Below are positions 8,986 to 37,722 of a stretch of DNA of 64,000 nt, piece after piece. The notes under the pieces were generated by a model. That model saw only the letters and a program-made list of their open reading frames with translations. It was not told the DNA's origin and searched no databases. A program made the translations under genes and the position numbers. This stretch comes from Curvibacter sp. (GTDB taxonomy: Bacteria; Pseudomonadota; Gammaproteobacteria; Burkholderiales; Burkholderiaceae_C). The stretch's first letter is position 1, and every line of letters begins with the position of its first letter. Location: the NCBI GenBank assembly GCA_020248905.1, contig JADCGR010000054.1, positions 1-64,000 on the forward strand, in the 5' to 3' direction.

Positions 8986-9031
8986 GACCTTGATGCCGCC
9001 ACTATTCCAACTGCACGAGAGGAGTACAGCG

Positions 9032-9067: not shown

Positions 9068-9100
9068 TCGTCAGACGCCGAGCCGAAGTTCTCACGGGCC

Positions 9101-9876
<776 letters not shown>

Positions 9877-9880
<4 letters not shown>

Positions 9881-13254: not shown

Positions 13255-13311
13255 GCGAACGCCATTCGATCAAGCCAGAGGCTGTGCAAAATGCTGTCCG
13301 TGAGCGCCGCC

Positions 13312-13380
13312 GTGCCGCCCCAAGGCGCGGGGGCCCCCTCGGGGGGCAGCGAGGACACGCCAGTGCCGAGCGTGGGGGCC
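13312..13380. repeat. GC-rich intergenic repeat, Comamonadaceae type
   Basis: Between lptB and rpoN lies a GC-rich segment with the hairpin GGGGGCCCCCTCGGGGGG (about 13329-13346), followed by a tail ending in GAGCGTGGGGGCC. Sequences of this type are scattered between genes in Acidovorax-like genomes, to my knowledge. A related tail is seen at about 11675-11691, on the other side of rpoN. It may act as a transcript-stabilising hairpin. No coding frame is supported here. Confidence 0.45.
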
Positions 13381-13384
13381 ATGG

Positions 13385-14236
13385 TCACATCTTGAAGTGC
13401 TCGCCCAGGTAGACCCGGCGCACGTCGGTGTTGTTGACGATGTCGGCCGGCGTGCCCTCAGCCAGGACACGGCCCTCGCTGATGATGTAGGCGTGGTCGC
13501 AGATGCCCAGGGTCTCGCGCACGTTGTGATCGGTGATCAGCACTCCCAGGCCGCGCGACTTGAGGAAGCTGATGATGCGCTGGATCTCGATCACGGCGAT
13601 CGGGTCGATACCGGCGAAAGGTTCGTCCAGCAGGATGAAGCGGGGCTGAGTCGCCAGCGCACGCGCGATTTCCACGCGGCGGCGTTCGCCGCCGGAGAGC
13701 GCCAGCGCTGGCGACTTGCGCAGCTTCTCCACGCGCAGGTCCTGCAGCAGATCGGTGAGACGGCGCTCAATCTCGTTCTTGCCCAGCGGCTTGCCGTTTT
13801 CGTCCAGCTGCAACTCCAGCACGGCACGCACATTTTCTTCCACGTTGAGCTTGCGGAAGATCGACGCCTCCTGCGGCAGATAGCTAAGGCCCATGCGCGC
13901 GCGCTGGTGGATGGGCATGTGCTCCACGCGCGCGCCGTCGATCAGGATCTGGCCGGCGCTGGCGCGCACCAGGCCCACGATCATGTAGAAGGAAGTCGTC
14001 TTGCCTGCGCCGTTGGGCCCCAGCAGGCCTACGACCTCGCCCTTGCGCACCGTCATCGACACGTCCTTGACCACCTCGCGGCTGCCATAGAACTTCTTGA
14101 GGTGCTGCGCTTGCAGCCGGCTGTCTGCGGGCGCAGGTCCGGTGTCGGGGCTGTCGCCCATGCCCCTCAGTGTGCCGGGGTCGGTGTCGGGCTGGCTGGC
14201 GAGGGCAGCGGCCGCAGTGGCCATGCGGTTGCTCAC
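13385..14236 (-). CDS. lptB: LPS export ABC transporter ATP-binding protein
   Basis: This is a 283-residue ABC ATPase with Walker A GPNGAGKTT, signature LSGGERRRVE, Walker B FILLDEP and switch histidine ITDHNVRET. It powers lipopolysaccharide extraction by LptFG at the inner membrane. It is about 40 residues longer than E. coli LptB because of a Pro/Asp-rich N-terminal extension; a later start (ATG for MGDSPDTG) is possible. The selected start overlaps the lptA stop by ATGA, which supports it. lptA, lptB and rpoN run in one direction and are probably cotranscribed. Confidence 0.95.
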   Translation of the reverse strand: MSNRMATAAAALASQPDTDPGTLRGMGDSPDTGPAPADSRLQAQHLKKFYGSREVVKDVSMTVRKGEVVGLLGPNGAGKTTSFYMIVGLVRASAGQILIDGARVEHMPIHQRARMGLSYLPQEASIFRKLNVEENVRAVLELQLDENGKPLGKNEIERRLTDLLQDLRVEKLRKSPALALSGGERRRVEIARALATQPRFILLDEPFAGIDPIAVIEIQRIISFLKSRGLGVLITDHNVRETLGICDHAYIISEGRVLAEGTPADIVNNTDVRRVYLGEHFKM

Positions 14237-14826
14237 CTGCGTCCCCCGCCCAGGCTGTCGTCGCTGCGCAGAGGGGCGCCCGGGCGGGCGGGCTCCGAAG
14301 CCGCGCTGCGCGGCGTGAGCGTGGCACGCACGCGCTCGCCGCCGCGCTGGGCACCGCCGTCGACGGTGAAGACATCTGTGAGGCTGTTGTACTGAATGTG
14401 GGTGCCGGTCACCACATCGGTCACCTGCGTGCCGCGAAGGCGGCGCAGCTGGGCGTCCTTGATGAGCTTGAACAGGTCGGCCTTGCCGTCGTACTCGATG
14501 GTCTCGCTCTCGCCCTCGATGAACTCGTTGTCACCGTCGCGCTTCTGACGAAAGAAGGCACGCTGGCCCGGCAGGGCCGTCACCACCCCGTACTGATAAC
14601 CCTGGGGATCCTGGCGCACATCGATACGTGCGCCGCGGATGATGATGGTGCCGCGCGTGAGCACCACGTTGCCGGTGAAGACGCTGACCTGCTTGAGGTC
14701 GTCGTAGCGCAGCGCATCGGCCTCGATGTTCATGGGCTGCTGCCGGTCGCCCTTTTCGGCGCTGGCGGCACCGGCTGCGAACACGCAGATGGTGCACAGC
14801 AGGAGCCGGAGTAGGGGGAAGGTCAT
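14233..14826 (-). CDS. lptA: LPS transport periplasmic protein
   Basis: The 197-residue precursor has a signal peptide (MTFPLLRLLLCTICVFAAGA, cleavage near ASA-E) and an OstA/LptA domain with repeats of the type MNIEADALRYDDLKQVSVF and GNVVLTRGTIIIRG. LptA forms the beta-jellyroll bridge that carries LPS across the periplasm. I chose the ATG at 14826 because the signal peptide starts there. The C-terminal tail is Arg/Pro-rich. The gene that usually precedes lptA, lptC, is not present; the neighbour is divergent gshB. Confidence 0.93.
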   Translation of the reverse strand: MTFPLLRLLLCTICVFAAGAASAEKGDRQQPMNIEADALRYDDLKQVSVFTGNVVLTRGTIIIRGARIDVRQDPQGYQYGVVTALPGQRAFFRQKRDGDNEFIEGESETIEYDGKADLFKLIKDAQLRRLRGTQVTDVVTGTHIQYNSLTDVFTVDGGAQRGGERVRATLTPRSAASEPARPGAPLRSDDSLGGGRR

Positions 14827-14961
14827 AGAGGCACGAATCTTGCTGCAGCGCGTCCGGGGCATTGTAATCGGGTCCGGGCGCTGGTCCGGCTTTTGCTTGG
14901 GATCGGCGTCCGGGCCGTGATTCGTGAGAGACTTCCCGACTGTCCTCACGACGCACGCCCC

Positions 14962-15918
14962 ATGAACCTGCTCTTCGTCGCCGACCCGCTGGAAACCTTC
15001 AAGACCTATAAGGACAGCACCTACGCCATGATGCGCGAGGCGCAGCGGCGCGGCCATACGCTGGCGGCGTGCGAACCCCGGCACCTCGGGTGGCTGGCCG
15101 CGACCGGCGTGACGGCCCCGGTGCGCCGCATCCGGTTAACGGGCCACGAGGAACAGTGGTTCCACGAAAGCCCGTTGCCGCCGCAGCGGCGCATCACCGC
15201 TCTGCGCGACTTCGACGCCGTGCTCATGCGCAAGGACCCGCCTTTCGACAGCGAGTTCTTCTACGCCACCCATCTGCTAGAGCGCGCCGAGCGCGAGGGC
15301 GCGCGGGTCTTCAACCAGCCGCGCGCGCTGCGCGACCACCCGGAGAAGCTCGCCATTCTTGAATTCCCGCAGTTCACGGCCCCCACCCTGGTCACACGCG
15401 AGCCGCAGGCCGTGCGGGACTTCCACGCCGAGCACCGCGACATCATCCTCAAGCCGCTGGACGGCATGGGCGGCATGGGCATCTTCCGCGTCAAGGACGA
15501 CGGCCTCAACCTCGGCGGCATTATCGAGACGCTGAACCGCCACGGCGAGCAGACGGTGATGGTGCAGAAATTCCTGCCCGCTATTCGCGAGGGAGACAAG
15601 CGCGTGCTGCTCATCGGCGGCCAGCCCGTGCCTTTCTGCCTGGCACGCATACCCCAGGGCAGCGAAGTGCGCGGCAATCTGGCTGCGGGCGGCAAGGGCG
15701 TAGCCCAGCCACTCAGCGCGCGCGACCGCGAGATCGCGCAGGCGCTGGGCCCGGTGCTGGCCGCCCGGGGCCTGCTGCTCGTGGGCCTGGACATCATCGG
15801 CGAGCACCTCACCGAGATCAACGTCACCAGCCCGACGTGTTTTCAGGAGATTACCGACCAGGCGGGGTTTGATGTGGCGGGGATGTTTATGGATGCGCTG
15901 CTGGCTGCTGCCAGCTAA
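14962..15918 (+). CDS. gshB: Glutathione synthetase
   Basis: This 318-residue ATP-grasp ligase joins gamma-glutamylcysteine and glycine. It has the family start NLLFVADPLETFKTYKDST, the ATP-grasp loop KPLDGMGGMGIFRV, and the metal-binding end DIIGEHLTEINVTSPTCFQE. The length matches E. coli GshB (316). The ATG at 14962 was preferred over upstream codons because conservation begins there. It is divergent from lptA across 135 bases and is unlinked to gshA, which sits near 55 kb in this window. Confidence 0.97.
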   Translation: MNLLFVADPLETFKTYKDSTYAMMREAQRRGHTLAACEPRHLGWLAATGVTAPVRRIRLTGHEEQWFHESPLPPQRRITALRDFDAVLMRKDPPFDSEFFYATHLLERAEREGARVFNQPRALRDHPEKLAILEFPQFTAPTLVTREPQAVRDFHAEHRDIILKPLDGMGGMGIFRVKDDGLNLGGIIETLNRHGEQTVMVQKFLPAIREGDKRVLLIGGQPVPFCLARIPQGSEVRGNLAAGGKGVAQPLSARDREIAQALGPVLAARGLLLVGLDIIGEHLTEINVTSPTCFQEITDQAGFDVAGMFMDALLAAAS

Positions 15919-23794: not shown

Positions 23795-24418
23795 ATGTAC
23801 GTGCCCGCCCACTTTGCCGAAACCCGCCCCGAGGAACTGCAGCGCATCATCCGCGAGCATCCGCTGGGCATGCTGGTGAACCACGGCGCGGACGGCCTGG
23901 ACGCTGACCACATTCCCTTCATGCTGGTTCCCGACGAAGGCGCGCACGGCCTGCTGCGCGCCCATGTGGCCCGCGCCAACCCTGTGTGGCAGCGCTGCCC
24001 CACGGGTACGCGGGTGATGGTGGTGTTTCGCGGCGCCGAGGCCTATGTGTCGCCCAACTGGTACCCGAGCAAGCACGAGACGCACCGGCAGGTGCCCACC
24101 TGGAATTACCAGGTGGTGCATGTGCATGGCACCATCACCGTACAGGACGACGAAAAGTCGGTGCGCGGCATCGTGGCGCGGCTGACGCAGCGGCACGAGG
24201 CCAGTGAGCCCAAGCCCTGGCGCATGGGCGACTCGGCCCCCGAGTACATCGACGGCATGCTGCGCAACATCGTGGGCATCGAGATTGCCATCGAATCCAT
24301 GGTCGGCAAATCCAAGCTCAGCCAGAACCGCGAAGCACGCGACCGCCTGAACGCGGCCGACACCCTGCACGCCGGCGGCCAGCCCGAGCTTGCCAGCGCC
24401 ATGCGGCAGACACCCTGA
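23795..24418 (+). CDS. paiB: PaiB-like FMN-binding protein
   Basis: The 207-residue protein matches PaiB. Its start is MYVPAHFAETRPEELQRIIR, followed by a split-barrel FMN-binding domain with the family motif VSPNWYPSKHETHRQVPTWN near 87 and a conserved C-terminal helix MLRNIVGIEIAIESMVGKSK. In Bacillus, PaiB was named as a negative regulator of sporulation and protease genes, but the fold is that of flavin oxidoreductases, so regulation may be indirect. No PaiA acetyltransferase gene is present. The 259-base spacer upstream has no supported gene. Confidence 0.88.
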   Translation: MYVPAHFAETRPEELQRIIREHPLGMLVNHGADGLDADHIPFMLVPDEGAHGLLRAHVARANPVWQRCPTGTRVMVVFRGAEAYVSPNWYPSKHETHRQVPTWNYQVVHVHGTITVQDDEKSVRGIVARLTQRHEASEPKPWRMGDSAPEYIDGMLRNIVGIEIAIESMVGKSKLSQNREARDRLNAADTLHAGGQPELASAMRQTP

Positions 24419-24442
24419 ACCTGCACACGACCCAGCCCCGCC

Positions 24443-24718
24443 ATGCAGAGCAAGACCTTCACCACCGGCCGCATCCGCCGCGCGGACTACGACGACAAGA
24501 CCCAGCAGCTGGACCTGCACTGGGACAGCAAGACCGTGCTGGCCTACAAGCAGGTGCCGCAGGAAGTGTTTCGCCGCCTGTGCGCCGCACCGAACCCGAC
24601 GACGTATTGGGAGGACCGGATTGCGGAGGAGTATCCGAAGGGCGTGGCGATGGGCAAGGCCTCGGGCTCCGACGATGCGGCGCAGAAGTTTCGGGACTTG
24701 TTTGGTGGCCATGAGTGA
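24443..24718 (+). CDS. KTSC-domain protein
   Basis: The 91-residue protein has a KTSC-like domain: a short beta-strand segment IRRADYDDKTQQLDLHW, then VLAYKQVPQEVFRRLCAA, and the conserved aromatic/Tyr region NPTTYWEDRI. KTSC domains occur alone or beside lysyl-tRNA synthetase-like or phage proteins, and no activity is established. It follows paiB by 24 bases on the same strand and is probably cotranscribed. It is also the last gene before the defence-like cassette. Confidence 0.7.
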   Translation: MQSKTFTTGRIRRADYDDKTQQLDLHWDSKTVLAYKQVPQEVFRRLCAAPNPTTYWEDRIAEEYPKGVAMGKASGSDDAAQKFRDLFGGHE

Positions 24719-24781
24719 CCTCAAGTCCGAACGTATTCAAGGCACAATCAGCGAAAGGGACATCTACGGAATAAGAATCCA

Positions 24782-27700
24782 ATGGCACGGATATTCGACA
24801 ACATCGATCAAGACCTGCTCGCCGCCCTGCGCGCCACGATGCAGGTATCGAAACGGTCAGATTTTTGTGTCGGCTATCTGAACTTGCGTGGCTGGCAAGC
24901 CATTGATGATCTGATTCAACCTTGGGACCCTGCCGCCGGGCAGGTTTGTCGCGTTCTGGTTGGCATGCAGCGTCCCCCGCATGAAGAGATTCGCGAGCTG
25001 TACCGGCAAGCCGATGGTGCCGGTCTGATGGACAACGCCACAGCCAGCCGTCTGAAAACCCAGTTCGCAGCCCATCTGCGCGAGCAGATCACCATGGGTA
25101 TTCCAACCGGCCAGGATGAAGCCGGTCTCCGACGGCTGGCACAGCAACTCCGGGCGGGAAAAGTCATCGTCAAACTTTTCTTGCCTTACCCATTACATGC
25201 AAAGCTGTATTTACTGTTTCGAGACGACGTCAACAACCCTATCACTGGCTTTGTTGGCAGCAGCAATCTGACGCTATCGGGTCTGTCTCGACATGGCGAA
25301 TTGAACGTCGACGTACTGGACCATCTGGGCACCGAAAAACTGGCTCAGTGGTTTGCCGCGCGCTGGGCTGAGCGTTGGGCGCTCGATGTGTCCGCCGATC
25401 TCGCAACGATTATTGAGAGCAGCTGGGCGCGCGAAGAGGCCATACCGCCGTACCACATCTACCTGAACATGGCCTACCACCTGAGCACCGAGGCGCGTGC
25501 CGGTCTGAGCCAGTTCCGCCTGCCGGGTCGCTTTGAGCAGGAGCTGTTCGAGTTTCAGAAGAGCGCGGTGAAGATTGCCGCCCGACACCTGCATCGGCGG
25601 GGTGGCGTAATGATTGGCGACGTGGTCGGCCTGGGCAAGACCATGATGGCCACGGCATTAGCGCGCATGTTCGAGGACGATCTGGGCTACGAAACCCTGA
25701 TCATTTGCCCCAAGAATCTGGAACCGATGTGGGAGCGCTATCGAACGGAATATGGCTTGCGCGGAATGGTGCTGCCGGTATCCCAGGTCACCAAGAAGCT
25801 ACCCGACCTCAAACGCTATCGCCTGGTATTGATCGACGAGAGTCACAATCTACGCAACCGTGAAGGCCGACGCTACAAGGCGATTGCGGATTACATCAAG
25901 AGCTGCGATGCCAAGGTCATCCTGCTGACGGCCACGCCTTACAACAAGAACAAGACCGACCTCTCCTCGCAACTGCGCCTGTTCATTGACGAGAAGGCCA
26001 ATATCGGCATCCGCCCCGAGCGATTCATGCGCAAGACCGGCATGAGCGAAGCGGAGTTCGAGCGCAAGTTTCAATGCAAGGTGAACTCGATTCTCGCGGT
26101 TGAGAAGAGCGATGAGTTCGACGACTGGCGTGAGTTGATCCGCTTGTACATGGTGCGCCGCACGCGCAGCTTCATCATCCAGCACTACACCGAAGCCGAC
26201 AAACATGGCCGGCGCTTCATTTCGGGGCGTGACAAAGAGAAACGCTACTTTCCCCTCCGTAAGCCTGTTTCGCTCACGTTTTCGGTGGATGACGCAGACC
26301 CGACCGATCGCTACGCGCGCCTGTACTCGCAAGAAGTTGTCGACCAGATCAACACCCTGCACGTACCGCGTTACGGCTTGGGGTTGTATGTGGACCAACA
26401 GGCGGAGAAGGCCGCAAGTACCGCTGAACGCAAGCAGATCGAAAACCTGGGGAGAGCCGGCAAGCGTCTGATGGGCTTCTGCCGCACCAATCTTTTCAAG
26501 CGGCTTGAGTCCAGTGGCTTTTCGTTCCTGCAGTCCATCGATCGCCATATTCTGCGCAATCAGGTTTACTTGTACGCCATTGAGAACGGGCTGGATCTCC
26601 CGGTCGGCGTACTCGATGCCGGCTTGTTGGATCTGGAGCGCGTGGACGAAGATGCAGAGGGCCTGGAAGGCGATCCTGAAGATTTGCTTGATGGTCTGGT
26701 CGAGGCGGTGTCCGAAGAAGACACCGCACCGGCTACGCTGGTACGCGCAAAGCTGGTGTATGAACAGTACGCCAACGAATACAAAAAGCGCTTCAAATGG
26801 CTGCGTTCCAGCCTCTTCAAGACCAAGTTGGCTGAAGACCTGGCCCAGGACACCCAGACCCTAACGGAAATGCTGCGCAAATATGGTCCGTGGGATACGG
26901 CACACGACCAGAAGCTCCTCGCCTTGCGCAAGCTCCTGACGCAAACACACGGCAAGGATAAGGCGCTCATCTTCACGCAATTTGCTGATACGGCGCGCTA
27001 TTTGGCCCGTGAACTGCAAAAGTCTGGCATCACCCACGTTGAGGTGGCTACTGGCGCCAGCGCTGATCCCTACTCGCTGGCCTGCCGCTTTTCGCCCAAG
27101 TCCAATAACAAAACGGTTGCGAAGTCGGACGAAGTGCGGGTGCTGATCTGTACAGATGTTCTGTCCGAAGGGCAGAACCTGCAAGACAGCAACGTCGTCG
27201 TCAACTTCGACCTGCCCTGGGCCATCATCCGCCTTATACAGCGCGCCGGCCGGGTAGACCGCATCGGGCAGCAGGCAGAAGAAATCCATTGCTACTCTTT
27301 TCTTCCGGCAGACGGCGTGGAGCAACTCATCCAGCTGCGCGCACGCATTCGCCAGCGCCTGCTGGAAAACGCCGAAGTGGTTGGGACGGATGAGGCTTTC
27401 TTTGAAGATGAAGAAGCAAACACCATCCGGAACCTGTACACCGAGCAACAGGGCGTGCTGGACGACATCGACGACGAGGTGGACCTCGCGTCCTACGCCT
27501 GGCAGGTCTGGAAGCAAGCGACAGAGGGCAACCCAGATCTGGCGCGCACTATAGAGTCGCTGCCGCCAGTGGTCTATTCCGCCAAGGGCTTCCGTCTTGA
27601 TGGCGCGCGCTTCCCGCTGTTGGGGGCTGATGCGGCCCTGGGTGGCGCGCTGGTCTATGTGAAATCCCCTGAGGGCAATGACCACCTAGTCTGGATCGGC

Positions 27701-28165
27701 CCGAACGGCAAGACCGTGACCGAATCCCAGTTCGCCGTGCTGCGAGCAGCCGAGTGTGAGCCCGACACGCCCGCCGTTGCCCGGCGGGAGAAACACCATG
27801 ATTTGGTTGCCGTAGGCCTGCAACTCGCCGTCAGCCAGGACAAGGCCATCGGCGGTGGCCTGGGCCGCCCCAGCAGTCCACGCCGCCGGGCTTATGAACG
27901 GCTCAAGGCCTATGCCACCAGCCAGATGCAAACCCTGTTCCGCGACGAGGAACTGGAGCGCGCGCTGGATGACCTTTATCTGCGCCCGCTACTGGAGACC
28001 GCGGCCGATCTGCTGAACCGCCTGATGCGCAGCGGCGTGAACGACGAAGAACTGGCCGAGGCTGTGAAATCCCTGCGGGAAGAAGGCCGGCTGACCTATG
28101 CGGACGAGGATGCCAGCTTGCGTGAACCGCGCGTGGTGTGCTCTATGGGTCTGATCAGTGAATAA
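24782..28165 (+). CDS. PLD-like nuclease domain fused to SNF2-type helicase (DrmD-like)
   Basis: The 1127-residue protein opens with a phospholipase D-like domain containing one HxK motif (H139 and K141 in PLHAKLYLLF) and the downstream GSSNLTLSG (about 159-167). A superfamily 2 SNF2-type motor follows, with Walker A GDVVGLGKT (279-287), DESH (352-355), LTATP (382-386) and motif VI RAGRVDRIGQ near 820. An acidic linker lies at about 615-655 and a helical C-terminal region of about 250 residues closes the protein. SNF2 motors with PLD domains occur in phage-defence loci; class 1 DISARM uses a SNF2 helicase, DrmD, next to an adenine methylase. It is the first gene of the cassette, 40 bases before the methyltransferase. 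Whether it cuts DNA is unknown. Confidence 0.85.
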   Translation: MARIFDNIDQDLLAALRATMQVSKRSDFCVGYLNLRGWQAIDDLIQPWDPAAGQVCRVLVGMQRPPHEEIRELYRQADGAGLMDNATASRLKTQFAAHLREQITMGIPTGQDEAGLRRLAQQLRAGKVIVKLFLPYPLHAKLYLLFRDDVNNPITGFVGSSNLTLSGLSRHGELNVDVLDHLGTEKLAQWFAARWAERWALDVSADLATIIESSWAREEAIPPYHIYLNMAYHLSTEARAGLSQFRLPGRFEQELFEFQKSAVKIAARHLHRRGGVMIGDVVGLGKTMMATALARMFEDDLGYETLIICPKNLEPMWERYRTEYGLRGMVLPVSQVTKKLPDLKRYRLVLIDESHNLRNREGRRYKAIADYIKSCDAKVILLTATPYNKNKTDLSSQLRLFIDEKANIGIRPERFMRKTGMSEAEFERKFQCKVNSILAVEKSDEFDDWRELIRLYMVRRTRSFIIQHYTEADKHGRRFISGRDKEKRYFPLRKPVSLTFSVDDADPTDRYARLYSQEVVDQINTLHVPRYGLGLYVDQQAEKAASTAERKQIENLGRAGKRLMGFCRTNLFKRLESSGFSFLQSIDRHILRNQVYLYAIENGLDLPVGVLDAGLLDLERVDEDAEGLEGDPEDLLDGLVEAVSEEDTAPATLVRAKLVYEQYANEYKKRFKWLRSSLFKTKLAEDLAQDTQTLTEMLRKYGPWDTAHDQKLLALRKLLTQTHGKDKALIFTQFADTARYLARELQKSGITHVEVATGASADPYSLACRFSPKSNNKTVAKSDEVRVLICTDVLSEGQNLQDSNVVVNFDLPWAIIRLIQRAGRVDRIGQQAEEIHCYSFLPADGVEQLIQLRARIRQRLLENAEVVGTDEAFFEDEEANTIRNLYTEQQGVLDDIDDEVDLASYAWQVWKQATEGNPDLARTIESLPPVVYSAKGFRLDGARFPLLGADAALGGALVYVKSPEGNDHLVWIGPNGKTVTESQFAVLRAAECEPDTPAVARREKHHDLVAVGLQLAVSQDKAIGGGLGRPSSPRRRAYERLKAYATSQMQTLFRDEELERALDDLYLRPLLETAADLLNRLMRSGVNDEELAEAVKSLREEGRLTYADEDASLREPRVVCSMGLISE

Positions 28166-28204
28166 GCTGCCGCATCAGAATTTTCAGAAGAATTGCACCA
28201 ACTC

Positions 28205-31200
28205 ATGACGGTTTTTAACCAAGAACATCTGCAGCAATTTCGCTTCAGGGAGCTGTTTGTCAATGATCTGGGGTGGGACCTTCCCGCCCAGCAGCAGCCA
28301 TTCAGCGTCGAAGTGGCGGATGTGGTTTGGGTGCTGCAAGTCGTTGCCCATAAACGCGGCGTGCAAGTGCTGCATTGCCTGCCCGGCGAAGACGGGCGCC
28401 TGCCTGACTACGCCACGCGCCAGAACATCGAGCGCAAGATCACACCGGATGTTCGCGAGCATCTGATTGTCTTCACCGATGCAGCCCAGACCACGCAGAT
28501 CTGGCAATGGGTTTCCCGGCAGTCCGGCAAGACCGCGCAGTACCGTGAGGTTCATTTCCGCAAGGGAGAAACACCCGAACTCCTAGCCCAGAAGCTGAGC
28601 CGCTTGCACTTCGCCCTAGACGAAGAAGAACTTCTGACCGTGCTGGGCGTGACCCAACGCTTGGACGATGCGGCACCGCGCGAGAAGGTCACCAAGAAGT
28701 TCTACAACGAGTTCGAAAAACAGCGCAAGGCTTTTGCGGCGTTCATCGACGGCATCCCAGGCGACAGCGAAGACCAGCGCTGGTACACGGCCGTGGTGAT
28801 TGACCGCCTCATGTTCCTGTGGTTCCTGCAGGAGAAAGGCTTCCTGGACGGCCAACGCAATTACCTGCAACTCCGGCTGGAAGCCCATCTGGCGGCCGGT
28901 CTTCCCCAGAGCTTCTACAAGCGGTTTCTGTCACCCTTGTTTTTCCGGGGGTTTGCACAGGAGCGCACCCCAGAGATCCAGGCGGCCATTGCCGCCGAGT
29001 TCGGCAACGTGCCCTACCTGAACGGCGGCTTGTTTGCGCAGCATGAACTGGAGCAACAGTACGGGGAAGCGCTCGACATTGCCGACGCTGCCTTCCAGAA
29101 GCTGTTTGCCTTCTTCGATGAGTGGGAATGGCATCTGGACGAGCGCCCGCTCAAGAGCGGCAAAGAGATCAACCCCGACGTGTTGGGCTACATCTTCGAG
29201 AAGTTCGTCAACCAGAAGCAGATGGGGGCGTACTACACCAAGGAAGACATCACCGAGTACATCGGCAAGAACACCATCATTCCCTGCCTGCTGAGCAAGG
29301 TGCGCGCCGAGCATCCGGGCGCTTTCGATGCGCTGGCCTGGCCGCTGCTGCAGCAAAGCGGCGACGCTTACATCTACCCCGCCATGCTCAAGGGAGTGGA
29401 CGCGCCCTATCCGACAGAGATCGCCAACGGGCTGGACACCTCTGCCCCTGACTTGCTGGAACGCCGCAAGCCCTGGAACCGGCGCGCCGATGACGCAGTG
29501 AGCTTGCCCACAGAAATCTGGCGCGAGACCATCGCCCGCCACCAGCGCACGCGCGAGCTTCGCGCCAAGATTGCTGCCGGCCAGTTGCGTGACGCGGGGG
29601 ACCTCATCACCTGGAACCTGAACATCCGCCAGTTTGCGCAAGACCTGATCGAGCGCTGCACGGATGTGGCCCTGCTCAAGAGCTTCTGGTTCAACCTGGC
29701 CGGGCGCCTGCCGCGCCAAAGCAACGAACACTTCCGCCACGGCCTGAGCGTGTTGGACCCGACCTGTGGCTCCGGCGCCTTCCTGTTTGCCGCGCTTAAC
29801 ATCCTCCAGCCGCTGTATGACGCCACCTTGCGCACCCTGCAAGCCGTGCGCACGGATGCCCTGATCACGGGCGAGACCAGCCGGCCGGAAAAGTGGGCCG
29901 AGGTGGACGATATCCTCAACCGCTTCAACGCCGCGGGTAGCGAGCACGCGCAAGACTACGCCGTCATCAAGCACATCATCGTCCACAACCTGTATGGCGT
30001 GGACATTGAAAAGCAGGCGACGGAAATTGCCAAGCTGCGCCTGTTCCTGAAATTGGTGGCGCTGCTGGAACCCGGCGACGAGATCGAGCCGCTACCGGAT
30101 ATCGACTTCAACATCCGCCATGGCAACACCCTGGTGGGCTATGCCACAGCCAACGAAACTGAACAGGCTGTCAAGGGCGCCACCCAGGGCAACCTGTTCA
30201 GCGACGCATGGGAAGACATACGCATTCGCCTGACGGCGGTGGAACAGCAGTACAACAACTTTCAGATCCAGCAGGTTCGGCACCACGGCCATGTGTCAGC
30301 GGCAGACAAACAGGCCCTTACGGAAACGCTGCATGACCTGGAGGAGATGCTGAACTACCACCTGGCGCGTGACTATGGTGTTAACACTACCAAGACCAAG
30401 GATTACGAGGCCTGGAAGGCAAGCCATCAGCCGTTTCATTGGTATGTCGATTTCTATCCTCTGATGGTCGCCGGCGGTTTTGATGTCGCCATTGGCAATC
30501 CTCCCTATGTTCAGCTTTCTGAAATTAAGGACTACGGCGTTTCTCGATATCAATGTGCAAGTTGCGGAAACCTATATGCGGTCATGCTAGAAAGGGCCGT
30601 GGCGTTGAAGCAGGCTAGCGGTAGAACCGGCTTTATCGTTCCGGTTTCAGCAATCTCAACTGACGGCTATTCATCTCTGCAAAATGTCTATTCGAAGGAT
30701 TCGACTCATGTGAGTTGCTTCGATGATCGACCGTCAAGACTATTTGACGGTCTTGAGCATATCCGTCTCATTGTCATCTTTTCCCAACGAGCCGCTCTGC
30801 CAAAGATGCATACGACTCGATATTACAAGTGGACGGCGGAGGAGCGCGCCTACTTGTTTGACAAGCTCGCCTACTTTGATGCACCCGCTTCACCAATTCC
30901 GAATTCGATCCCGAAGATAGGCGACAACATCGAGTCCGTTCTCTTGAGCAAGATCGGAAGTGCTGGCAAGCCAGTTGCTTTGCACACTGCGCGTGGTGGT
31001 GATCATTTTTTGAACTATTCACGAAAAGTCGGCTATTTCCTGCAGGTGTTAGATTTTGAACCCGTGGTTTTGAGCGGTGATGGATCGCGGCGCCCCCCTA
31101 GCGAATTCAAGACGATTTTCTTCGGGACCAAGACCGAAGCGCGCGCCGCATTAGCCATTCTGAACAGCTCTCTTTTTTACTGGTACATCACACTGCTTTC

Positions 31201-31528
31201 GGATTGTCGACACCTGAACAAGCGCGAAATTGAGTCCTTCCCAATTTCATCCAATCTTCTTTCAGCAAACGCCTCACCACTCGTTGACATGGCTGTCCGC
31301 GCGTTAATGGATGGATTAGATGCGCAATCCGAGCACCGTGTGATGAAGTTCCGTCATGACCAGCTCACGGTGCAATGCCTTCTTCCCAAAAAGTCATGGG
31401 AAGAAATCCAGCGTATAGATGAGCTGATTGCTGACGCATTCAAGTTTTCGGCAGCGGAGGCGGACTACATCGCCAACTACGACATCAAGTATCGTATTGG
31501 CGCCGAAATGGAAGACTCGGATGATTGA
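28205..31528 (+). CDS. Eco57I/DrmMI-type adenine-specific DNA methyltransferase
   Basis: The 1107-residue protein has a helical N-terminal region of about 480 residues, then N6-adenine methyltransferase motifs: SAM motif I VLDPTCGSGAFLFAAL near 515 and catalytic NPPY near 765. A C-terminal target-recognition region follows. This is the gamma-type layout shared by type IIG enzymes, PglX and DrmMI. I see no clear PD-(D/E)xK nuclease motif, so it may only modify DNA. GC drops from about 63% to about 46% from roughly 30440 onward, matching the recognition region and suggesting exchange of specificity. The ATG at 28205 is the first; a TTG twelve bases earlier is possible. The 3' end overlaps the next gene by eight bases. 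Confidence 0.88.
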   Translation: MTVFNQEHLQQFRFRELFVNDLGWDLPAQQQPFSVEVADVVWVLQVVAHKRGVQVLHCLPGEDGRLPDYATRQNIERKITPDVREHLIVFTDAAQTTQIWQWVSRQSGKTAQYREVHFRKGETPELLAQKLSRLHFALDEEELLTVLGVTQRLDDAAPREKVTKKFYNEFEKQRKAFAAFIDGIPGDSEDQRWYTAVVIDRLMFLWFLQEKGFLDGQRNYLQLRLEAHLAAGLPQSFYKRFLSPLFFRGFAQERTPEIQAAIAAEFGNVPYLNGGLFAQHELEQQYGEALDIADAAFQKLFAFFDEWEWHLDERPLKSGKEINPDVLGYIFEKFVNQKQMGAYYTKEDITEYIGKNTIIPCLLSKVRAEHPGAFDALAWPLLQQSGDAYIYPAMLKGVDAPYPTEIANGLDTSAPDLLERRKPWNRRADDAVSLPTEIWRETIARHQRTRELRAKIAAGQLRDAGDLITWNLNIRQFAQDLIERCTDVALLKSFWFNLAGRLPRQSNEHFRHGLSVLDPTCGSGAFLFAALNILQPLYDATLRTLQAVRTDALITGETSRPEKWAEVDDILNRFNAAGSEHAQDYAVIKHIIVHNLYGVDIEKQATEIAKLRLFLKLVALLEPGDEIEPLPDIDFNIRHGNTLVGYATANETEQAVKGATQGNLFSDAWEDIRIRLTAVEQQYNNFQIQQVRHHGHVSAADKQALTETLHDLEEMLNYHLARDYGVNTTKTKDYEAWKASHQPFHWYVDFYPLMVAGGFDVAIGNPPYVQLSEIKDYGVSRYQCASCGNLYAVMLERAVALKQASGRTGFIVPVSAISTDGYSSLQNVYSKDSTHVSCFDDRPSRLFDGLEHIRLIVIFSQRAALPKMHTTRYYKWTAEERAYLFDKLAYFDAPASPIPNSIPKIGDNIESVLLSKIGSAGKPVALHTARGGDHFLNYSRKVGYFLQVLDFEPVVLSGDGSRRPPSEFKTIFFGTKTEARAALAILNSSLFYWYITLLSDCRHLNKREIESFPISSNLLSANASPLVDMAVRALMDGLDAQSEHRVMKFRHDQLTVQCLLPKKSWEEIQRIDELIADAFKFSAAEADYIANYDIKYRIGAEMEDSDD

Positions 31529-33044
31529 CCTAAGTCTTGCGCAAGCTTCGTCTCGCATTGCTACCCTGCTGGGGGCACAAGAGAGTCGATCACTCGACTT
31601 CAAGCGTATCGGCAGCAAGCATGGACGTCTGATTGAAACCATTTGCGCCTTCGCCAATTCGGACGGCGGGGTGTTGGCACTCGGCATCGGCGACGCCAAG
31701 GATTTGAAACCCGGCGCAAAACCCGAGAGTCGCCTGTTCGGCATCGAAGAAAACCCCGAAGCGTTTGACGACTTTCGCCGCCAGGTCATGAACCGCTTCA
31801 CGCCGGCGATTGAGCGGCTGCACTGGCTGCGCCTGCCTTGCACCTTGCACAACGGCCAAGCCGGGCATGTCGTGCTGCTACGGGTGGAGAAGAGTGAGCA
31901 GGTTCACTCGGTAGTGGGCAACGGTACGTGGACGCGCATGGATGCGAGCAACCGTGAGCTGGCAGCAGCCGAGATAGCCGACCTGACCTACCAGCGCGGC
32001 GTGAAAAGTGCCGAGACCCTGCCCATGCCGGTAGCGCTGGATTTGCTGAACACGGACGCGTGGCGCAGCTATTGCGGCACACGGGGCTTGGCTGATATGG
32101 ACTTGGCGGTGCGCTTGCCCCGGTTGGGCTTGGCGGTGCCTGGTAAGGGTGGTTTGCAGCCGCTGCTGGCCGCGGTGCTGCTGTTTGCAGACGAGCCTGG
32201 CGCCTTGCTGGCCGGGCAAGGCATGCGAGCGGATATCCGCGTGTTCCATTACAAGGGCAAAGCAGTGTTGCGCAGCGAGGTGCCCAACTTGCTGTTGCCA
32301 CCCAAGACCATCAGTGGCCCGGCGGTGGAGCAGATTGCCAAGGCGCAGGCCTATGTGCTGGAACGCCTGGCCGTGGGCCTGACGATGGAGGGCTCGGGCT
32401 TCAAGACGCGCTATCGCTACCCTGAGCGTGTGATCAAAGAGGCCATTACCAATGCGGTGGTGCACCGGGATTACCGCTTGAATCGCGACATCCACATCCG
32501 CATTTTTGATGACCGTGTGGAGGTGGAAAGCCCGGGGCGGCTGCCGGGCAATTTGACGCCGGCCACCATCGAGAAGGCACGTTCAGTGCCCCGCAACAGT
32601 TTGCTGGCGCAACATTTGCGGGAGTTTCCCAACCCGCCCAATGTGGACGCGGGCGAGGGCGTGCCCATGATGTTTGCGCAGATGTCCCAGGCCAATTTGT
32701 ACGAGCCGCTGTACCGCGAGCAACTGGAGGCGGCCGTGCCCACCCTGGTCGTGACCTTGCTGAATGAAGAGCGTCCGCCGCTGTGGGTGCAGGTGAGCGA
32801 CTGGATAGACCGCAACGGCCCCATAGCCAACAGCAAGCTGCGTGAAATCTCGGGGCTGGACACATTGGCCGCCTCGAAGCAGCTACGGCAGTGGGTGGTG
32901 CAAGGGGTTTTGGTGGCATTGCCCGCGGCGTCTCGCCAGCTAGCCAGCTACACCAAGCCGGAGTTGGCTGGCTTGATGGACTTGACGCATTCATTATCTT
33001 TTGGCTTGGATAATGAAAACGGAAACGGGGAAAAACCTTTATAA
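31521..33044 (+). CDS. AlbA_2 (Schlafen-type) plus GHKL ATPase protein
   Basis: The 507-residue protein has an N-terminal AlbA_2/Schlafen-like domain (about 15-130) with ESRSLDFKR and FANSDGGVLALGIGD. In the middle is a GHKL ATPase of the HATPase_c_4 type, with the N-box EAITNAVVHRDY near 310 and the segment RVEVESPGRLPGNL. The C-terminus looks like a winged helix (about 425-475). Proteins of this build are annotated as putative transcriptional regulators or RecG-like ATP-binding proteins, and several sit in defence islands. Its start lies inside the methyltransferase gene (overlap 31521-31528), so production is coupled. A role as sensor or regulator of the cassette is inference. Confidence 0.82.
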   Translation: MIDLSLAQASSRIATLLGAQESRSLDFKRIGSKHGRLIETICAFANSDGGVLALGIGDAKDLKPGAKPESRLFGIEENPEAFDDFRRQVMNRFTPAIERLHWLRLPCTLHNGQAGHVVLLRVEKSEQVHSVVGNGTWTRMDASNRELAAAEIADLTYQRGVKSAETLPMPVALDLLNTDAWRSYCGTRGLADMDLAVRLPRLGLAVPGKGGLQPLLAAVLLFADEPGALLAGQGMRADIRVFHYKGKAVLRSEVPNLLLPPKTISGPAVEQIAKAQAYVLERLAVGLTMEGSGFKTRYRYPERVIKEAITNAVVHRDYRLNRDIHIRIFDDRVEVESPGRLPGNLTPATIEKARSVPRNSLLAQHLREFPNPPNVDAGEGVPMMFAQMSQANLYEPLYREQLEAAVPTLVVTLLNEERPPLWVQVSDWIDRNGPIANSKLREISGLDTLAASKQLRQWVVQGVLVALPAASRQLASYTKPELAGLMDLTHSLSFGLDNENGNGEKPL

Positions 33045-33101
33045 ATCAATGGGTTGCGCCCTCGCTCATTATCCGGGGAAAGTCGGATGGGTGAGCTCCA
33101 G

Positions 33102-33120
33102 GGTAGACGCCCTGTCTACC
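33102..33120. repeat. Inverted repeat upstream of SLOG-like gene
   Basis: A perfect 7-bp inverted repeat, GGTAGAC-GCCCT-GTCTACC, lies in the 122-base gap between the AlbA_2 gene and the DprA/SLOG-like gene, 47 bases before the latter's ATG. It has no T-tract, so an operator or mRNA hairpin is likelier than a terminator. It is the only gap of this size inside the four-gene cassette. Confidence 0.45.
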
Positions 33121-33166
33121 TTGGGTGGCATGACCCAGGGAGGGGTTGAATGGGGGTAAGTCCTTG

Positions 33167-33673
33167 ATGTCTGCACTGTGGCATCTACAGGGGCGGGAGC
33201 TTCTGACGGGGCGTGGCGCGCGTGCGCTGCTGGACCTTGAGCTGACGGCCTTCTTTGCTTCCCGGCAATGCCCCGGCACGGCCATTCGTGCGGCGATGGA
33301 CTGGGCTTTGCAGCAGGCAAGTGCCAAGCGCGCCATCATCAGCGGCTTTCACTCTCCGCTGGAGCAATCTGTATTAACCGTGTTAATGGCGGCAGGCAGC
33401 CCCACCGTGGTGGTGCTGGCCCGCCCCGTGCAAGACGCCAAGCTGCCGCCAGAGTGGCACGACCCATTGGCGCATAGGCGTATGGCGGTGATAAGCGGCG
33501 TGGACAAAGCCGACCGCCTGACGCAGCAATCAGCAACTGAACGCAATGCTCTGGTGGTGCGACTGGCCCACAGCGTTGTGGTGGCGCATGCCAGCCCGAC
33601 AGGCTCTTTGGCTGCGCAGATGGCGCAGTGGCGGCAAGAAGGGCGACGGGTGGCGCAGCTTGTTGCGCCTTAG
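33167..33673 (+). CDS. Short DprA/SLOG-like Rossmann protein
   Basis: The 168-residue protein resembles the nucleotide-binding core of DprA/Smf and LOG proteins, the SLOG superfamily. It has AIISGFHSPLEQSVLTVL (a Gly-rich turn followed by a helix), a strand reading SPTVVVLARPVQ, the motif LPPEWHDPLAHRRMAVIS, and a distal RNALVVRLAHSVVVAHAS. It lacks the SAM and winged-helix parts of true DprA, so transformation is not its likely job. SLOG proteins in conflict systems are thought to sense or make nucleotide signals. The ATG at 33167 was chosen because conserved sequence starts there. It closes the cassette. Confidence 0.7.
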   Translation: MSALWHLQGRELLTGRGARALLDLELTAFFASRQCPGTAIRAAMDWALQQASAKRAIISGFHSPLEQSVLTVLMAAGSPTVVVLARPVQDAKLPPEWHDPLAHRRMAVISGVDKADRLTQQSATERNALVVRLAHSVVVAHASPTGSLAAQMAQWRQEGRRVAQLVAP

Positions 33674-33788
33674 CGGCCGACCGAAAGCGACGACTGGGGG
33701 TGCGACTCTTTATCTTTGAGGCCAGAAAATGAACCCCTACCTCCTAAAAAATCTTTCTGGGTCAATTAGTTAGGCCACAGGCCATTAT

Positions 33789-34619
33789 CTAGACCTGTAT
33801 ATTCACACAGTCCACCAGGGCCTCCAAAGCACTCCCCACCTCGGTTTCCACCTTGATGCCCAGCAGGGAATCCGCCCGCGTGCGCCCGCGATTCACCGCC
33901 ACCACCGGCTTGCCCGCCGCCACCGCCTCTTCCACAAAGCGGTAACCTGAATACACCATCAGCGAGGAGCCGGCCACAAGCACGGCATCGGCCTGCGCCA
34001 GCGCCTCGCGCACCGCCGCCACACGCTCGCGCGGCACGTTCTCGCCGAAGAACACCACGTCGGGCTTGAGCATGCCACCGCAGGCCGAGCAGGCCGGCAC
34101 GTCGAAGCCCGCGAAGTCCCGGCCCTCCAGATCGGCGTCGCCATCGGCCAGGCTGCGTGCGTCCAGCGCCAGCCAGGCCGGGTTGCGCGCTGTCAGTTCC
34201 TCCTGCAGCGCGCGGCGCGGTGTACGTGCACCGCAGCCCAGGCAACACACGGTGTCGATACGGCCATGCAGGTCCACCACCTTGGCGCTGCCGGCGGCCT
34301 GGTGCAGGCCGTCGACGTTCTGCGTGACCAGCAGGTTGATACGCCCCGCGCGCTCCAGCTGCGCGAGGGCATGGTGCGCGGCCGCGGGTTGCGCATGCGC
34401 CATGGTGCGCCAGCCCAGCATGCTGCGCGCCCAGTAGCGCTTGCGCGCCACCGCGTCGCCCGTGAAGACGTGAAAGCGCATGGGCTCGCGCTGTTTCCAG
34501 GCGCCGTTCTCGTCGCGGTAGTCGGGAATGCCGGCGGCGGTGCTGCAGCCGGCGCCGGTGATGACGAGCAGGCGCGGATGCTGGTGGACGAAGTCAATCA
34601 GAGGCTGCAGATTAGCCAT
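33789..34619 (-). CDS. NAD-dependent protein deacylase (SIR2 family)
   Basis: The 276-residue sirtuin has every hallmark: [16 protein letters not shown] (NAD and flexible loop), [12 protein letters not shown], the catalytic His in DLHGR, two zinc pairs (CLGCG and CSACGG), and VVFFGENVP. The R-x-Y-W helix and the linker resemble class II (SIRT4-like) enzymes, which include lipoamidases and deacylases. It is convergent with the defence cassette, 115 bases beyond its last gene. As it is full-length with no extra effector domain, a housekeeping role is likelier than Thoeris-type NADase defence. Confidence 0.92.
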
Positions 34620-34683
34620 GTGCGGATTGTGCGGGCACGGGCAAGGCTGCGCTGACAGGGGGATTTGCCCTGGGGCCTAAATT

Positions 34684-34702
34684 GTCTTACCATTCGTCTT
34701 AC
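34684..34702 (+). promoter_or_regulatory. Candidate operator of the vapBC-like pair
   Basis: Two exact copies of GTCTTAC (34684-34690 and 34696-34702) stand 12 bp apart just upstream of the ribosome site AGGAG (34706-34710) of the antitoxin gene. AbrB/MazE-type antitoxins commonly bind repeats over their own promoter, so autoregulation through this site is plausible. The spacing is slightly over one helical turn. Confidence 0.4.
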
Positions 34703-34718
34703 TTCAGGAGCTTGCGTT

Positions 34719-34979
34719 ATGGAAACCGTCACACTGTCGAGCAAGGGCCAGTTGGTCATTCCCAAAGAGGTGCGGCGTAGCGCCAAGCTGCAAACGGGCG
34801 ACCAGTTCTCCGTCAGCTACGTGGAGGGAGAAATCCGCCTGCGGCCCCTGCCCGCACCGGGCGTCACCTCGCTGGACGCAGTGGCCGGCTGTCTGGCCAA
34901 GTCTGGCCGCAAGCGCATGAGCGAGGAACAGACGCAGGCAGCCATCAAGGCGCGGCTCAAGACCCGCAACGCCGCATGA
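34719..34979 (+). CDS. AbrB/MazE-type antitoxin (VapB-like)
   Basis: The 86-residue protein starts with a swapped-hairpin AbrB domain (METVTLSSKGQLVIPKEVRR, then GDQFSVSYVEGEIRLRPL). A flexible C-terminal tail rich in Lys/Arg/Ala would wrap the toxin. AGGAG eight bases upstream fixes the start. It overlaps the PIN-domain gene by ATGA, the usual antitoxin-first order. It most likely neutralises the downstream RNase and represses the operon. Confidence 0.85.
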   Translation: METVTLSSKGQLVIPKEVRRSAKLQTGDQFSVSYVEGEIRLRPLPAPGVTSLDAVAGCLAKSGRKRMSEEQTQAAIKARLKTRNAA

Positions 34980-35368
34980 TCGTGCTGGACACCAACCTCC
35001 TGGCGCGTCTGCTACTGCGCGATGATGCGCGCCAGTACGGCCGCGCCCGCGACTTGCTGGCACAGGAGCGCGACTACACCGCGCCCGTCACGGTGATGCA
35101 GGAGCTGGTCTGGGTGCTGGAAGTCAATGATTGCACCCGCGAGGAGATCGCGCACGGCTTGGAGCTGCTGCTGGGTCTGCCTAACTTCAAACCCCAGCAG
35201 CCCGAGGCCCTGCGTCAGGCACTGACCTGGTACGCCCAGGGACTGGACTTCGCAGATGCCTTGCATTTGGCGCTGAGCCAGGGCTGCGAAGGCTTGCTTA
35301 CTTTCGACAAGGCGTTTGCCCGGCAGTCCGTCAAGTTGAAAGCCTTGCCCCCGGTACGTGCCGTGTAG
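34976..35368 (+). CDS. PIN-domain RNase toxin (VapC-like)
   Basis: The 130-residue PIN protein carries the first acidic residue in MIVLDTNLLARLLLRDD, Glu in VMQELVWVLE, Asp in LDFADALHLALS and Asp in LTFDKAFAR, a complete metal-binding set. VapC toxins cut tRNA or rRNA; the target here is unknown. Translation is coupled to the antitoxin gene by a four-base overlap. A strong hairpin terminator follows about 20 bases after the stop. Confidence 0.87.
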   Translation: MIVLDTNLLARLLLRDDARQYGRARDLLAQERDYTAPVTVMQELVWVLEVNDCTREEIAHGLELLLGLPNFKPQQPEALRQALTWYAQGLDFADALHLALSQGCEGLLTFDKAFARQSVKLKALPPVRAV

Positions 35369-35386
35369 GCAACACGCGCTCCATAG

Positions 35387-35413
35387 AAAACGGCGCCCGT
35401 GGGCGCCGTTTTT
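35387..35413. terminator. Bidirectional intrinsic terminator
   Basis: A perfect 12-bp stem (AAAACGGCGCCC-GT-GGGCGCCGTTTT) is flanked by an A-run on the left and a T-run on the right, so it can end both the vapBC-like transcript (plus strand) and any read-through from malate synthase (minus strand). Confidence 0.85.
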
Positions 35414-35421
35414 GCTACGAC

Positions 35422-35469
35422 CCTTCGCCGCTTCGACAGGCTCAGGACAGGCCGGGCTCAGGGCGAAGG
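35422..35469. repeat. REP-like inverted repeat
   Basis: Arms CCTTCGCC and GGCGAAGG bracket a 32-base centre containing CTTCGACAGGCTCAGGAC, followed by a partial copy GGCTCAGG. Sequences of the form 'TTCGACAGGCTCAGGGCGAA' are dispersed between genes in many Burkholderiales genomes, to my knowledge. This copy sits between the vapBC terminator and the 3' end of glcB. Confidence 0.5.
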
Positions 35470-35475
35470 TGAGGG

Positions 35476-37722
35476 TCAGGCGGCAGCCTTCACCTTCAGA
35501 CGCCAGGCGTGCAGCAGGGGCTCGGTGTAGCCGCTGGGCTGCTCCAGGCCCTTGAAGACCAGGTCGGTGGCGGCCTTGTAGGCCATGGAGGTCTCGAAGT
35601 TGCCGGCCATTTTCTTGTACAGTGGGTCGCCGGCGTTCTGCTGGTCCACCACGGCGGCCATGCGCTCGAAAGCCTCGCGCACCTGCTGCTCGGTCACGAT
35701 GCCGTGCAGCAGCCAGTTGGCGATGTGCTGGCTGCTGATGCGCAGCGTGGCGCGGTCTTCCATGAGGCCCACGTTGTGGATGTCGGGCACCTTGGAGCAG
35801 CCCACGCCCTGGTCGATCCAGCGCACCACATAGCCCAGGATGCCCTGGCAGTTGTTCTCGATTTCCTGCGTGATCTCTTCGGCGCTCCAATTGGGCTTGG
35901 CGGCCACGGGCACGGTCAGCAGGCCGGTGAGCAGCTTCTCTTCCAGCACCTTGAAGCTCTTCGCCGTGGCCTGCTGCTCCAGCTCGTCCTGGATGGCGGC
36001 CACGTTGACCTGGTGGTAGTGCAGCGCATGCAGCGTGGCGGCCGTGGGCGAAGGCACCCAGGCGGTGTTGGCGCCGGCCTTGGGGTGCACGATCTTCTGC
36101 TGCAGCATGGCGGCCATGAGGTCGGGCATGGCCCACATGCCCTTGCCGATCTGCGCACGGCCCTTGAGGCCGCAGGCCAGGCCTTCGAGCACATTGCTCT
36201 GCTCGTAGGCGGCGATCCACTCGGTGCCCTTCATGGCAGCCTTGCGGATCATGGGGCCGGCGTGCATGGCGGTGTGCATCTCGTCGCCCGTGCGGTCCAG
36301 GAAGCCGGTATTGATGAAGGCCACGCGGCTCTTGGCGGCGGCAATGCAGGCCTTGAGGTTCACGCTGGTGCGCCGCTCCTCGTCCATGATGCCGAGCTTG
36401 ATGGTGTTCTCGGGCAGGCCCAGCAGCTGTTCCACGCGGGCGTAGAGCTCGCAGGCGAAGGCCACTTCGGCCGGGCCGTGCATCTTGGGCTTGACGATGT
36501 AGATGGAGCCGGTGCGCGAGTTGCGGATGCCCTTCCCGGCGCCTTCGGTGCCGGCTTGCGATTCCTGCAGGCCCTTGCGCAGGTCATGCACAGCCACGGC
36601 GGATGTAATGACGGCGTCCATGATGCCCTCGAAGATCTCGCTGCCGTCGCCACAAAGGATGGCCGGGTTGGTCATCAGGTGGCCGACGTTGCGGATGAAG
36701 AGCAGCGAGCGGCCGTGCAGCTTGATCTCTTCACCGTTGGCGCCCTTGTAGACGCGGTTGGCGTTGAGGCGGCGCGTGAAGGTCTTGCCGCCCTTGGCGA
36801 CTTCTTCGGTGAGCGTGCCCTTGAGGATGCCCAGCCAGTTGTCATAGGCGAGCACCTTGTCATCGGCGTCAACCACGGCCACGGAGTCTTCCAGGTCCAG
36901 GATGGTGGAGAGCGCGGCTTCGATCAGCAGGTCGCTCACGCCGGCGGCGTCACTGCGGCCGATGGGCGTGCTGCGGTCGATCTGGATCTCGATGTGGATG
37001 CCGTTGTTGCGCAGCAGGATGGCCGAGGGCGCGGCGGCGCTACCCTGGTAACCGATGAACCTGCTGCCATCGGCCAGATGGGCCTTGCTGCCGTCCTTGA
37101 GCGTGACGACTAGCTTCCCGCCTTCCACGGCGTAGCCCGTGGAATCGAGGTGCGAGCCCTTGCGCAGGCCGGCTACGCGGTCGAGCACATGGCGCGCGTA
37201 TTCGATGACCCGGGCACCGCGCACGGGGTTGTAGCCCTTGCCGTCGGGGCCGGCCTTGGTCGCGCCGCCGGCTTCGGGCAGGGCGTCGGTGCCATAGAGC
37301 GCGTCGTACAGCGAGCCCCAGCGCGCGTTGGCGGCGTTGAGCGCATAGCGCGCGTTGAGGATGGGCACCACCAGCTGCGGGCCGGCCTGCACGGCAAGCT
37401 CCGCGTCTACATTGGCGGTGTCACATTCCACATGGTCGGGCACGGGCACGAGGTAGCCGATCTTCTCAAGAAAGGCGCGGTAGGCCTTCATGTTCCTGAT
37501 GGGGCCGGGGTTGGTCTTGTGCCAGGCGTCCATCTCGGCCTGCAGGCGGTCGCGCTCTTTGAGCAGGGCTGCGTTCTTGGGGCCCAGCTCATGGGCGATG
37601 GCGTCAAAACCCTTCCAGAAATCGGCGCTGCGGATGCCCGTGCCGGGCAGCACCTTGTCTTCAATGAAGCGGTACAGATTGGTGGCGACTTGCAGGCGAT
37701 GGGCCTGGGTGCGTTGCGTCAT
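35476..37722 (-). CDS. glcB: Malate synthase G
   Basis: The 748-residue enzyme condenses glyoxylate with acetyl-CoA to malate. It has the MSG-type clasp and TIM-barrel sequence: [32 protein letters not shown], the [20 protein letters not shown] segment with catalytic neighbours, and the C-terminal acidic plug. E. coli GlcB has 723 residues, so the length is ordinary. The start at 37722 has GGAGG nine bases upstream. It lies 32 bases after the haloacid dehalogenase gene on the same strand; a shared operon would link glycolate or glyoxylate formation with its use. Confidence 0.96.

Follow-up and report, generated by a model that had tools for sequence, protein, structure and literature searches.

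In type ISP restriction enzymes, a single polypeptide comprises the nuclease, the motor, the methyltransferase and the recognition domain, and the nuclease is of another type than the HKD nuclease described below. Two further groups of described defence systems bring together a helicase and a DNA methyltransferase. In class 1 DISARM, a SNF2 helicase (DrmD) accompanies an adenine methyltransferase (DrmMI), and type-2 BREX-related systems, according to the excerpted text of PMC12839542, combine an HKD nuclease and SNF2 helicase with an N6 methyltransferase; the same excerpts describe the BREX-related DUF499 systems as centred on a DUF499 ATPase, with DUF3780 present in 98% of taxa. The 64,000-nucleotide stretch of Curvibacter sp. 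DNA analysed here (assembly GCA_020248905.1, contig JADCGR010000054.1, positions 1 to 64,000; hereafter the window) contains a cassette of four genes, designated H, M, A and D. The comparison of its sequences with those of related loci indicates that the cassette is probably a horizontally acquired, ATP-dependent, type ISP-like restriction–modification system split over H and M, accompanied by D and by a slot for cargo genes.

The four open reading frames (ORFs) were all found on the forward strand (24782–28165, 28193–31528, 31428–33044 and 33146–33673). Together with the Pfam matches given below, they bore out the original prediction of four genes running in one direction and encoding a PLD domain fused to a SNF2 helicase, an adenine methyltransferase, an AlbA_2 plus GHKL ATPase protein and a short DprA/SLOG-like protein. 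The alignment with homologues pointed to ATG 28205 as a likelier start of M than the ORF start at 28193, and ATG 33167 is likewise a likelier start of D than 33146. The predicted 8 bp overlap of M with A was correct given a start of A at ATG 31521, the stop codon of M being located at 31526–31528; the frame opening at 31428 overlaps M more.

The H gene (24782–28165, forward strand) encodes a protein of 1127 aa, in which an N-terminal HKD (PLD-family) nuclease is fused to a SNF2 motor. Pfam matches to PLDc_2, SNF2-rel_dom and Helicase_C were all above the curated cut-offs, and the PLD domain sits inside H and does not form a separate gene. The HKD nuclease motif (25196–25306) comprises HAK at residues 139–141, GSSN at 159–162 and GELN at 172–175. 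In an alignment of 68 H proteins that span many phyla, each of these residues, including H139, K141, N162 and E173, was conserved in at least 99%. The motifs of the SNF2 motor were nearly invariant in the same set. In the Walker A sequence GDVVGLGKT (25616–25642, residues 279–287), G279, D280, V281, V282, G283, G285 and K286 were present in all 68 proteins and L284 in 97% of them. Such conservation of the nuclease residues and motor motifs across the 68 proteins suggests that H is in use. Both by sequence and by fold, H resembled SNF2 ATPases, with RapA among the best, and its highest-scoring PADLOC model was C3a139 ‘HKD+Snf2’ (162.7 bits, model positions 3 to 769 of 948 aligned). The structure models of M and H drew on 51 M and 42 H proteins, out of 75 and 60 listed, in addition to those of the window. 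On a Haladaptatus plasmid (8902–16059 of the fetched locus), a haloarchaeal relative of M was convergent, not in tandem, with an HKD-SNF2 protein distantly related to H (27% identical).

The M gene (28193–31528, forward strand) encodes an N6-adenine DNA methyltransferase with a target-recognition region. The protein matched Pfam Eco57I (84.8 bits, above the curated cut-off) and, across its whole length, the PADLOC type IIG model PDLC03628 (949 bits; 923–1134 bits for three relatives). As M is already covered by this type IIG model, the protein as such is not new. A sequence search of the PDB with M gave only two weak, apparently unrelated matches; the closest solved folds to the AlphaFold model (predicted local distance difference test score, pLDDT, of 86.7) were CamA, PglX/BrxX and the type ISP enzyme LlaGI. 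In the catalytic motif NPPY (30497–30508, residues 769–772), N769, P770 and P771 were found in all 82 aligned proteins. The region following this motif was hypervariable. The identity of M to its counterparts in the related loci L016–L018 was 31–56% at residues 791–860 and 16–40% at 861–1060, versus 81–90% at 161–660, and residues 791–1060 (30563–31372) are the probable target-recognition region. Fold and variability place methyltransferase and recognition domain in one M chain, a feature of type IIG restriction enzymes.

To describe the surroundings of M in other genomes, the best 80 of 436 confirmed relatives were used, drawn with two peptide patterns taken from the alignment of M with three plasmid relatives. 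As the loci were found by patterns of M, they lean to its closest kin. Going by the record titles, some of which may be mistaken, they represent about 16 phylum-level groups, mostly as metagenome-assembled genomes; L018, for instance, is titled Cytophagales but is similar to the window throughout. The longest-frame gene caller missed some genes, and the locus counts were supplemented by tblastn hits. H was detected near M in 68 of the 70 loci with at least 2 kb before M, upstream and on the same strand in 66 and downstream in two (L090 and L091). A search starting from H revealed it in four other genomes of 399 at the order level and three others of 398 at the phylum level; with one genome shared, six were distinct, and M adjoined H in all six. 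Besides H, M, D and A, no clustered family occurred in more than 7 of 85 loci (the window, 4 plasmid and 80 genome loci). H and M are a conserved pair, and the four genes are not equal partners. The four-gene unit assumed in the original prediction was rejected, as all four genes were found inside 3 kb in only 5 of the 80 loci (L016, L017, L018, L056 and L062), A being exchangeable and D inconstant.

In the window, the slot after M is filled by A (31521–33044, forward strand, 507 aa), an AlbA_2 plus GHKL ATPase protein with matches to SLFN_AlbA_2 (47.2 bits) and HATPase_c_4 (60.7 bits), both above the curated cut-offs. In 5 of 72 loci (L016–L019 and L023), four of them the nearest kin of the window, A lay no more than 250 bp behind M, and it was found in none of the five loci with downstream room in the sample drawn with H. 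Of 399 genomes in the order, 8 besides that of the window had a homologue of A (E ≤ 1e-40). These did not include any of the four others carrying H there, and the contexts of A were fetched for six of the eight. In three contexts (L197, L198 and L199) the gene before A was a type I hsdS, and L197 and L198 also had hsdR upstream, which indicates that A is shared between different restriction systems. Elsewhere (L196 of genome G073, 8757–10985) A stood directly before D, with neither H nor M; the two may function as a pair of their own, or the loss of H and M may have left them behind. In L200 and L201, A was interrupted or truncated and H, M and D were missing. A is an exchangeable accessory (cargo) gene, portable between systems.

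The content of the slot in other loci was surveyed by scanning 30 of 116 listed neighbouring frames against Pfam. The matches included GmrSD (L026, L072 and L081), RhuM (L028 and L053), DUF3644 (L021 and L044), reverse transcriptase (L045), HNH (L056), SIR2 with HerA (L059), Piwi (L087), TPR-AlbA_2 (L034 and L036), AAA_21 (L040 and L077) and an MmeI-like enzyme (L092). Trypsin, HSP70, PEMT and integrase matches were not defence-like, and six of the 30 frames had no match.

The last gene of the cassette, D (33167–33673, forward strand, 168 aa), encodes a DprA-like SLOG protein matching Pfam DNA_processg_A (39.4 bits, above the curated cut-off). Of the 72 loci in which the sequence extends 700 bp or more past M, 47 had D, invariably downstream of M and in the same orientation; the distance to M was 250 bp or less in 18 of these and several kb, with other genes in between, in some. 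D was counted out to the end of the fetched flank, and in one count 8 of 44 occurrences were at least 3 kb from M. The SLOG gene is thus a frequent, not constant, third member, optional as A is. The possibility that D is the housekeeping DprA was rejected, since that protein (248 bits) has its own gene on a different contig of the genome. D also matched PsyrA of PsyrTA (60.2 bits) and, weakly, ShosA of ShosTA (16.6 bits). It differs from these systems in that the match spans about a third of the PsyrA model and D belongs to a restriction operon; no toxin matching PsyrTA or ShosTA was identified with D.

These features are best explained by a restriction–modification system in which the functions of a type ISP enzyme are divided. 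The difference from LlaGI and LlaBIII is that two genes are involved, in the window and in the related loci, with an HKD nuclease and a SNF2-like motor. M would read an asymmetric DNA site via its variable C-terminal region and methylate one adenine, by which host DNA would be marked. On unmethylated invading DNA, we infer that M would recruit or load H, the SNF2 motor of which would travel along the duplex and the HKD domain of which would cut it. For D, binding of single-stranded DNA or of a nucleotide signal is most likely, and the protein could regulate the complex or the cargo; A may act as a swappable back-up effector or regulator riding behind restriction systems. Judging from these sequences, the H–M pair probably protects the cell from viruses.

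The alternative that survives best, although improbable, is that M is a self-sufficient type IIG enzyme, the operon of which also contains H, A and D as defence genes independent of it. The whole-length type IIG scores of M and its three relatives speak for it, and so does the model of residues 1–125 of M, the helix, strands, helix, strands of which could form a PD-(D/E)XK-like domain. Against it, the N-terminus of M reads AxK where (D/E)xK would be expected (A52 in 73 and K54 in 76 of 82 proteins, with an acid at position 52 in none), and no invariant acid–acid–lysine set was found in residues 14–130 of the 82-protein alignment, this domain not having been compared alone with solved folds. 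The presence of H near M in nearly all loci would also be unexpected of an independent neighbour.

Slightly less probable still is a reduced DISARM or BREX-related locus, which has lost its core genes and in which H and M descend from DrmD and DrmMI or from a BREX-related helicase and PglX. H matched DrmD with 123.6 bits and BREX helicase models with 88.8 bits, M matched DrmMI with 75 bits and PglX models with 53–70 bits, and the fold of M is close to that of PglX. The pairing of HKD and SNF2 helicase with an N6 methyltransferase, ascribed to type-2 BREX-related systems in the excerpts of PMC12839542, is likewise seen in H and M. However, the DrmD score is far under the NCBIfam cut-off of 610 bits and the PglX score (69.5 bits) far under that of 500 bits, despite the similar fold, and DrmMI scores far under the type IIG model with its 949 bits. 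The label ‘DISARM-like’ in the original prediction was therefore not supported, the feature shared with class 1 DISARM being a SNF2 helicase paired with an adenine methyltransferase.

The core genes of these systems were also looked for. No match to the DrmB MZB/DUF1998 domain was found in the genome of the window, and in the genomes tested, those of 50 of the 80 loci, the 35 matches all fell outside the cassette neighbourhoods (up to 10 kb on each side). PglZ, too, was missing from the genome of the window, and none of the 25 placed matches (of 28) from the 50 genomes lay in such a neighbourhood. In total, 60 of 63 matches were placed; those left out were the second piece of a fetched frame, a match more than 1 Mb from the cassette (G446) and a weak one (G451:C61). 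The DUF499 ATPase, on which the BREX-related DUF499 systems are centred, was absent from the genome of the window, the relatives not having been searched for it. A scan of the four proteins and of 10 flanking frames revealed neither a DrmA helicase nor a separate DrmC PLD gene, with no genome-wide search being made. The original prediction had regarded drmABC or pglZ recurring next to the gene set in relatives as evidence against a separate system, and for DrmB and PglZ no such case was seen among the matches placed from the 50 genomes; its view that the core is a system distinct from both DISARM and BREX was upheld. Membership of DISARM, BREX or DUF499/Hma was rejected on the lack of DrmB, PglZ and DUF499 in the genome of the window, the lack of placed DrmB and PglZ matches beside the 50 related loci tested, and the low DrmD and PglX scores, and a lost core agrees poorly with the lack of any other recurrent gene family among the 85 loci.

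An actual relative of the pair was identified on the Synechocystis plasmid pSYSX, where the H relative (49% identical) is followed by the M relative (44% identical, WP_011153869). It differs from the window in that H and M are separated by a short gene and a VapC-like gene, M is followed by DUF2513, and A and D are absent. Just beyond the pair (12769–15390 of the fetched locus), a set of multiubiquitin, E2, ThiF and DUF6527 genes was noticed. Excerpts of PMC6604393 locate M.Ssp6803IV and M.Ssp6803V on pSYSX, and those of PMC7296061 assign M.Ssp6803V to slr6095-97. As the plasmid gene table showed one other DNA methyltransferase, the M relative, this protein is by elimination M.Ssp6803IV, specific for the asymmetric sequence GA-m6A-GGC. 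The excerpts of PMC7296061 give the methylation of this sequence in wild-type Synechocystis as ~99.6% (1446 of 1451), and the excerpted PMC6560206 states that Synechocystis expresses no active restriction–modification system in spite of the methylation of its sites, and the cyanobacterial relative may thus serve modification only. It is very improbable that the pair in general has lost restriction, or seldom uses it, and is by now chiefly a modification or epigenetic system, in view of the HKD residues and motor motifs retained by H in many phyla.

The Synechocystis report is one of several observations that weigh against a split restriction system with D as its third member. The assignment of M.Ssp6803IV was made by elimination from a gene table described as incomplete by its own source. 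M was present with no H nearby in L033 and L083, and in L032 H was found in pieces only. The structure model of H was of middling confidence (pLDDT 76.8), and the contrast between the core (64–74% identity) and the recognition region (38–57%) was weaker in the comparison of M with L019. D was absent from all four plasmid loci and present in one of the five loci with downstream room in the sample drawn with H, so that the two samples disagree on its frequency (47/72 versus 1/5).

The split restriction system could also be part of a wider group. It is conceivable, if doubtful, that the cassette represents an unnamed, widespread class of split ATP-dependent systems, in which the SLOG subunit D would sense failed restriction, e.g., single-stranded DNA left by the translocating nuclease, and license the effector in the slot between M and D, with Schlafen-like, Piwi, GmrSD, SIR2 or reverse-transcriptase proteins serving as back-ups. 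Among the open PubMed Central papers searched, no title or abstract named an HKD-SNF2 protein, such a methyltransferase and a DprA-like protein as one system.

The insertion site of the cassette was examined in congeners. The order glcB, Sir2, 0.8–2.2 kb and KTSC-like gene occurred with no cassette in 5 of 12 congener stretches beside glcB, and six other stretches had neither Sir2 nor the KTSC-like gene nearby. In the window, the cassette is located between two genes outside the system, one of 91 aa on the left (24443–24718, forward strand; 80–93% identical in 5 of the 12 stretches), which we take to be KTSC-like, and the Sir2-family gene near glcB on the right (33789–34619, reverse strand; PF02146, 151 bits; 82–88% identical in 5 of the 12). 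In L017 and L018, a malate synthase gene follows directly after the cassette. No M of comparable score was found in the 25 congeners searched, which yielded two weak matches of 17.6–19.1 bits. The G+C content in 2 kb windows was 0.54–0.62 in the cassette versus 0.64–0.70 in the 5–10 kb to each side; low values were also recorded elsewhere in the window (0.57–0.58 at about 3–8 kb).

In an 82-codon frame of one congener, G004 (L183, 2390–4720), the opening codons of H run directly into the closing codons of M. Behind this frame come an intact A, with 90.7% identity across 507 residues, a D that is divided between two frames, and finally glcB. This is most simply read as a deletion of H and M that spared A; the alternative is an assembly error.

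The tRNA-Trp called by ARAGORN at 34322–34395 was considered as an integration site and rejected as a probably false call, since it is located within the Sir2 frame, antisense to it, and since the five congener stretches that keep Sir2 gave no tRNA-Trp call; one tRNA-Val was called in one of these (L177). Rfam gave no matches at the gathering score over 24000–35500. Genes for a MazE-like antitoxin and a PIN-domain protein (34665–35368) adjoin the cassette, between Sir2 and malate synthase G. Elsewhere in the genome of the window (G000:C3, 67983–73141), a second SNF2 match (frame of 1099 aa) was found, with a weak match to M (28% identical, frame of 1301 aa) following about 4 kb later, another helicase and methyltransferase locus, possibly of a different defence system.

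The H–M pair looks widespread yet poorly catalogued. If the split system proposed here is real, PADLOC classes its M as type IIG and lacks a full-length model for H or for the cargo slot, despite the occurrence of the H–M pair in many phyla. The G004 locus offers a natural way to test whether A is dependent on H and M. The moves of A between the H–M core, type I operons and a pair with D would, moreover, provide a handle on the roles of AlbA_2/GHKL and DprA-like proteins in phage defence.

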